NCBI RefSeq assembly: GCF_009711225.1
Contig: NZ_WMIE01000001.1
Span: 558,001 to 622,000, forward strand
DNA length: 64,000 nucleotides
Source of the DNA: Paracoccus aestuariivivens
Lineage (GTDB): Bacteria > Pseudomonadota > Alphaproteobacteria > Rhodobacterales > Rhodobacteraceae
Direction: 5' to 3'
The notes under the pieces were generated by a model. The model was not told the origin of the DNA and ran no database searches. It saw only the letters and a program-made list of their open reading frames with translations. Below, piece by piece: positions 35,268 to 35,683 of this stretch (position 1 is the stretch's first letter; each line of letters begins with the position of its first letter). The translations under genes were made by a program, and so were the position numbers.

Positions 35268-35296
35268 TTGCCTCGATGCGCTCGGTTTCCTATATC
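35268..35296 (+). promoter_or_regulatory. Candidate promoter of the guanidine riboswitch-gdx transcript
   Basis: TTGCCT (35268-35273), a 17-base spacer and TATATC (35291-35296), each matching the sigma-70 consensus at four of six positions. The expected start site at about 35302-35304 is the first base of the riboswitch stem. Confidence 0.6.
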
Positions 35297-35302
35297 TGGC
35301 CC

Positions 35303-35344
35303 GAGGACGACCTCACCATCACGGCAAACGAACGGGACGGCCCG
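35303..35344 (+). ncRNA. Guanidine-II riboswitch (mini-ykkC)
   Basis: Two short hairpins occur. Stem GAGG/CCTC holds loop ACGA (35303-35314), and stem CGGG/CCCG holds loop ACGG (35333-35344), with an 18-base linker. Twin hairpins with ACGR loops just before a ribosome-binding site (AGGAGA at 35351-35356) define the guanidine-II riboswitch, whose loops kiss when guanidinium binds and which controls translation. The downstream gene encodes a Gdx/SugE-type transporter, the classic target. Loop and stem bases are seen; ligand control is established for the class. Confidence 0.9.
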
Positions 35345-35362
35345 ATCAACAGGAGATCAGGC

Positions 35363-35683
35363 ATGGCTTGGTTCTATTTGCTCGCTGCGGGACTGCTGGA
35401 AGTCGTCTGGGCCTACGCGATGAAAAAATCCGAAGGCTTCACACTGCTCACCCCCTCAATCGTCACACTTGTCGCGATGATCGCCAGCTTCGCCTTGCTG
35501 TCGATTGCGATGCGGACCCTTCCGCTCGGGACCGCCTACACAGTGTGGACCGGTATCGGCGCGGTCGGTGCGTTCATTCTGGGCATTACGTTTCTTGGTG
35601 AAGCCATCACGCCGATGCGCATCGTCGCAGCCCTGCTGATCGTCAGCGGCATCGTGGCCATGAAGCTCAGCAGCGCGCATTGA
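35363..35683 (+). CDS. gdx: SMR-family guanidinium exporter (Gdx/SugE type)
   Basis: The protein has 106 residues and four transmembrane helices. WFYLLAAGLLEVVWAYAMKK carries the essential Glu near residue 13. Further hallmarks are LPLGTAYTVWTGIGAVGAF and LGEAITPMRI. These match Gdx/SugE and not EmrE. It exports guanidinium in exchange for protons. AGGAGA lies 7 bases before the ATG at 35363; longer in-frame readings lack a signal and start inside the CDF promoter region. The guanidine-II riboswitch directly upstream strongly supports the substrate. Confidence 0.94.
   Translation: MAWFYLLAAGLLEVVWAYAMKKSEGFTLLTPSIVTLVAMIASFALLSIAMRTLPLGTAYTVWTGIGAVGAFILGITFLGEAITPMRIVAALLIVSGIVAMKLSSAH

Follow-up and report, generated by a model that had tools for sequence, protein, structure and literature searches.

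A guanidine-II riboswitch before a Gdx-type transporter gene in Paracoccus aestuariivivens and the association of guanidine-II elements with a subfamily of PACE transporters

Results and Discussion

The guanidine-II aptamer and the gdx locus

The window analyzed here, a 64,000-nucleotide stretch of the Paracoccus aestuariivivens genome, carries on its plus strand gdx (35363–35683), a gene for a 106-aa Gdx-type SMR transporter. The Shine-Dalgarno (SD) site AGGAGA (35351–35356, plus strand), read directly from the DNA, lies 6 nt before the ATG at 35363. Upstream of it is a guanidine-II riboswitch aptamer (RF01068; 35299–35345, plus strand), which scored 33.3 bits with the Rfam covariance model against a gathering score of 32. 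This was the sole gathering-level match when the 64 kb were compared with 4227 Rfam families (E 0.0071). At whole-genome scale its E-value is 1.2e-4, and the genome holds one further guanidine-II match. Guanidine-II RNAs require two hairpins with ACGR loops, and both are present. P1 (GAGG-ACGA-CCUC; 35303–35314, plus strand) and P2 (CGGG-ACGG-CCCG; 35333–35344, plus strand) each consist of 4 bp, closing ACGA and ACGG loops respectively, and were identified both by direct reading and by the Rfam match. An earlier note on this DNA had placed the two hairpins at these positions, assigned AGGAGA to a Gdx-type gene, and proposed the covariance search as a check. Direct reading confirmed the coordinates, the search returned the family match rather than a refutation, and the gene assignment was borne out by the phylogenetic and structural comparisons below.

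The neighboring genes lie on the minus strand and encode a CDF transporter (34245–35171), an AHSA1 protein (35804–36268), and the urea ABC importer components UrtE, UrtD, UrtC, and UrtB (36315–40980). Urea importer genes are thus found near the predicted guanidinium export unit, and UrtB (659 aa) bears a long N-terminal extension. Two close relatives (78.6% and 72.3% identical) likewise have AHSA1 after the unit. At the other 58 loci, the ~1.5-kb flanks, in some cases shortened by contig ends, contained no CDF match. A strong stem-loop without a T run (−17.2 kcal/mol over 67 nt) occupies positions 35684–35750, 3′ of gdx. An in-frame ORF (35159–35683) running through the riboswitch into gdx was set down to chance, since it is the ATG at 35363 that follows an SD site and matches the N-terminus of Gdx in alignment. 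The search of this genome for urea/guanidine carboxylase stayed below the cut-off, its best match covering model positions 1–442 of 1201 with 567 of 1304 bits, so guanidine breakdown by the carboxylase route is not evident.

Assignment of the window protein to the Gdx type

Membership of the window protein in the SMR family was established with PF00893 (99.6 bits). The protein fell 1.2 bits short of the NCBIfam SugE equivalog cut-off (124.8 vs 126 bits), and the best other SMR model gave 66.7 bits. Its closest solved structures were 8vxu (114 bits) and 6wk5 (112 bits), with EmrE at 58. The 6WK entries are Gdx-Clo, according to the accessible portion of PMC9574504. Gdx-Clo (6wk5 and others, with 8vxu a near-identical chain) aligned over residues 1–104 of the window protein as its best solved-structure match. 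Glu13 and the TM3 GXG motif, both named in that portion of PMC9574504, are also present. In contrast to Gdx-Clo itself, the window protein is the sequence of a different organism, for which we infer the export function.

Phylogenetic analysis gave the same assignment. A tree of genus SMR proteins (125 of 126 rows, one truncated protein being left out, and including the proteins from 85 of the 86 SMR loci without a guanidine-II match) separated a Gdx side from an EmrE-like side with support of 100/100, and the window gene fell within the Gdx clade. The two sides were named by a TM1 motif that we take to be the Gdx one. Across the 73 genomes represented, 45 of the 60 proteins on the Gdx side were encoded behind a guanidine-II element, compared with none of the 65 EmrE-like proteins. 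This contrast is a strong internal control: the element follows the Gdx type.

These results bear on the reading that export of drugs or quaternary-ammonium compounds is the main role of the SMR protein, which would then stand behind a riboswitch by happenstance. The SugE model that it narrowly missed carries a quaternary-ammonium name, and Gdx proteins have been reported to confer resistance to such compounds (PMC12186494, in the part available). However, placement of the window gene in the Gdx clade, absence of the element before any EmrE-like SMR gene found in the genus, and the Gdx-Clo-like nearest structures make this reading improbable. A Gdx-type guanidinium exporter remains the preferred assignment.

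Guanidine-II elements across the genus

At least one guanidine-II match at E ≤ 0.001 was present in 53 of the 121 genomes examined, and in 41 the match exceeded the Rfam cut-off. The 59 matches from this search preceded SMR genes (42), a PACE gene (13), or other genes (4). A covariance model built from 53 genus aptamers was then applied to 98 SMR and PACE loci without a prior match, yielding seven more copies, five before Gdx-type genes and two before PACE genes. The other genes preceded by guanidine-II in relatives encode proteins of ~270 aa (L003, L006, L027, and L035). Gdx-type genes without a detected element occurred in genomes G004, G006, G007, G010, G020, G023, G040, G047, and G055–G058 (e.g. 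L162, L094, L118, and L164). Guanidine-II control of these genes may have disappeared or given way to another kind.

Alignment of 53 of the 59 matches (alignment A1, leaving out one duplicate, four non-genus copies, and one copy before another gene) showed P1 to be paired in 100% of aptamers, with both sides changed in three of its four pairs. These compensatory changes support helix P1. P2 was almost invariant and is thus uninformative on covariation. Within the P1–P2 linker (window 35315–35332; alignment columns 19–33), a small CCC/GGG stem recurs in the genus, with 92.6% of cells paired; it is shortened in the window copy.

A conserved promoter places the predicted start site at P1

A −35-like hexamer, TTGCCT (35268–35273, plus strand), and a −10-like hexamer, TATATC (35291–35296, plus strand), separated by a 17-nt spacer, were read directly upstream of the aptamer. 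We searched for a TTG-type −35 paired with a −10 of the form nAnnnn whose end lies 6–16 nt upstream of the loop-closing GG of P1. In the genus, 42 of 55 loci contained such a pair (four of the 59 matches being left out as non-genus), compared with a mean of 0.47 and a maximum of 3 for base-shuffled sequences. The same arrangement was found at 68 of 80 PACE loci from outside the genus (shuffled mean 1.35, maximum 5). The distance from the end of the −10 to the P1-loop GG peaked at 10 nt. From this spacing, the window start site is predicted at ~35302–35304, the foot of P1.

A generic promoter scan of the window, which accepts only −10 elements ending in T at the sixth position, did not list TTGCCT/TATATC; TATATC lacks that T. 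At the PACE unit in the same genome (L001), no match to the conserved −35/−10 arrangement was detected. The conserved spacing suggests that the window transcript likely begins at the aptamer. The earlier note had proposed a promoter whose start site falls on the first stem; this placement holds and now has comparative backing.

Taken together, these data leave a very remote chance that the motif match is a degenerate or accidental copy devoid of function. It exceeds the gathering score by only 1.3 bits, and the fold energy of the leader is unremarkable against shuffles (z −0.61). Against this stand the presence of the element before 44 further genus genes in the Gdx clade, the covarying P1, and the narrow promoter spacing. 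The window aptamer is a real member of the guanidine-II family, for which ligand binding and expression control are predicted.

A predicted expression platform

Overlapping P2 is a predicted switch hairpin, GCCcGAUC/GAUCaGGC (35340–35362, plus strand), which excludes P2, contains the SD site, and extends to the start codon. Scored each by itself in the 82-nt leader, the switch hairpin reached −9.0 kcal/mol and P2 −5.8 kcal/mol. Compared with shuffled leaders, the hairpin gave p values of 0.016, 0.018, 0.024, and 0.048 (the last for the window) and 0.10 in a fifth clade member, but these five are close relatives and thus not independent. Over all 54 leaders, five reached p ≤ 0.05 where 2.7 were expected, which is no clear excess. 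The GAUC/GAUC core recurs in three close relatives with differing loop lengths, and as GAUC/GGUC in a fourth. Two of these relatives retain every outer pair.

Broader comparisons were null. Swapping native and exchanged leaders revealed no excess pairing between aptamer and SD at 58 of the 59 loci (p 0.39 and 0.18), nor at 79 of the 80 outside PACE loci (p 0.70), where the test is weak because many members share CCCC and GGGG. In the full ensemble, enforcing P1/P2 did not raise the openness of the window's SD–AUG region (0.37 vs 0.39). A probable reason is that the sequence around the start codon can pair with early coding sequence, as seen in the fold. In three close relatives, enforcement lowered openness (−0.13, −0.13, and −0.07). 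Given the null swap and ensemble tests and the kinship of the clade members, the expression platform is a specific prediction rather than a result, and a translational ON switch is its likely form.

The published model has guanidine-II act on translation through a putative anti-SD located in the linker (PMC9094411, PMC7544219, and PMC12186494, in the parts available). We therefore considered that the aptamer is real but controls the SD site through this classical P1–P2 linker, as proposed for E. coli, instead of the 3′ arm of P2. In line with the published proposal (PMC9094411), linker–leader complementarity averaged 5.06 across the outside PACE leaders (78 of 80 covered), above the 3.85 of shuffles. 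However, the 42 SMR leaders showed no such excess (3.93 vs 3.86), and the longest match in the window is 3 nt, for which reason the linker was set aside as the window platform. Association of a linker CCCC with a leader GGGG was not significant inside any group (p 0.65, 1.0, and 0.74). Linker control of the window gene thus appears rather unlikely, and pairing by the P2 3′ arm is the reading we retain.

The E. coli gdx/sugE guanidine-II RNA (mini-ykkC) offers a close comparison. Both RNAs have two ACGR hairpins joined by a short linker, stand directly before a Gdx gene, and have an SD site a few nucleotides after P2. They differ in that the window copy has no evident linker anti-SD and instead a predicted hairpin overlapping P2. 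Deleting 20 bp over P2 reportedly makes gdx expression constitutive in E. coli (PMC13064478, in the portion available).

Altogether, we are confident that a guanidine-II aptamer directly preceding a Gdx-type SMR gene constitutes this unit, predicted to act as a translational ON switch that would increase synthesis of a likely guanidinium exporter as guanidinium accumulates. RNA polymerase would start at ~35302–35304, as the conserved promoter suggests, which would make P1 the first element of the transcript. In the unbound RNA, the P2 3′ arm is predicted to pair downstream within 35340–35362, trapping the region from the SD site to the start codon. Binding of guanidinium to the two loops, ACGA and ACGG, may then lock P1 and P2 through a kissing contact, as proposed for the family, and free the SD site. 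The Gdx protein would export guanidinium against protons, an activity established for its family. The window thereby adds an ordinary, well-supported guanidine-II/gdx pair of a kind already known.

A second guanidine-II unit precedes a PACE gene

The further guanidine-II riboswitch of this genome (L001 1063–1548; G000:C34:125119–125166, minus strand) scored 39.5 bits. An 18-nt gap separates its end from the gene that follows, which encodes a PACE protein of 139 aa (PF05232, 164 bits, in two stretches). The protein comprises two PF05232 halves, and its TM1 Glu (Glu15) is invariant in all eight aligned members. Among the best 80 of 418 relatives, Cereibacter and Rhodobacter proteins were closest (74%). 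This unit likely acts in the same way as the window unit, with the PACE transporter as its output. PF05232 and the invariant Glu15 are shared with AceI-type PACE proteins; the difference lies in the guanidine-II element before the gene, which was seen at only 3 of 27 further PACE loci from a phylum-wide draw, these three all belonging to the same class. No solved structure was related to the PACE protein by sequence at E ≤ 1, and no viral contigs encoding the subfamily were confirmed.

Within the genus, the element stood before a PACE gene in 15 of the 25 genomes with PACE genes. A PACE tree of 24 of the 26 loci (the divergent genes without an element in G024 and G048 were left out, no start being found) split cleanly by presence of the element, with 15 rows having it, 9 lacking it, and one change at support 93/93.

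The association extends beyond the genus. Eight genus PACE proteins were used to scan named genomes, and the best 80 of the 418 relatives were retained. By their titles these are Alphaproteobacteria, including Rhizobium, Neorhizobium, Microvirga, Hoeflea, Sulfitobacter, Roseovarius, Cereibacter, and others. With the genus model, the element was found just before the PACE gene in all 80, and both ACGR hairpins had at least 4 bp in all 80; as these members were chosen by similarity to riboswitch-bearing ones, this speaks for the subfamily and not for PACE at large. The Rfam model was less sensitive at PACE loci, giving scores above gathering at 14 of 20 loci and E ≤ 0.001 in 35 of 40 genomes.

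The phylum draw of 249 genomes supplied 35 further genomes with PACE. The PACE loci examined, covering 27 of these genomes, had the element in three of six cases from the class, 16–21 nt before the start codon, and in none of 21 outside it; one 17.6-bit match at E 0.084 was counted as chance. In a 91-row PACE tree, which took 40 of the 80 outside loci, presence of the element required 3 changes compared with a shuffled mean of 27, with long branches leaving the details unsure. The link between guanidine-II and this PACE subfamily is tight and widespread.

No paper linking PACE to a guanidine riboswitch was found; the original guanidine-II gene lists were outside the scope of this search, so that an earlier mention is possible. 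The word "riboswitch" is absent from a PACE phylogeny paper (PMC9045395), and both "riboswitch" and "guanid" are absent from a PACE review (PMC6195760). The available part of an SMR review (PMC9574504) does not contain "PACE", and that of a 2025 guanidine review (PMC12186494) has "Pace" only as an author's name. In PMC10149990 and PMC9228545, guanidine, riboswitch, PACE, and chlorhexidine all appear but are treated apart in the portions available.

PACE as a possible substitute for Gdx

The distribution of the two transporter types was strongly skewed. Among 73 genus genomes, a PACE unit was present in 11 of the 15 without a Gdx-clade gene, compared with 4 of the 58 with one (p 4e-7, for related genomes and uncorrected for kinship). 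Two of these 11 (G039 and G043) had no SMR match among the matches listed. Likewise, only 7 of 40 named genomes from the best 80 encoded an SMR protein with a SugE-model score of 85 bits or more, a line that we placed ourselves at a gap in the scores; the other 33 had at most 66 bits or no match.

Read most simply, the data have PACE filling the role of Gdx in these bacteria, with its substrate suggested by the riboswitch. We consider it somewhat probable that the alphaproteobacterial PACE subfamily forms another class of guanidinium exporters unrelated to Gdx, switched on by guanidine-II and replacing Gdx in most carrier genomes. Under rival readings, the compounds exported by PACE are diamines or a different guanidinium compound, or the guanidine-II RNA before PACE serves as a proxy sensor only. 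The genome of the window is among the minority that keep both units. A guanidine sensor before a PACE gene points directly to a candidate natural substrate for those members that have one, and the proposal can be tested. If the proposal is correct, riboswitch-controlled PACE pumps would gain a natural substrate, and two pump families would have converged under one RNA sensor.

PACE paralogues without the riboswitch (L064–L067, L072, L075, L079, and L083) group apart and differ in their upstream sequences, where a divergent regulator gene is perhaps located.
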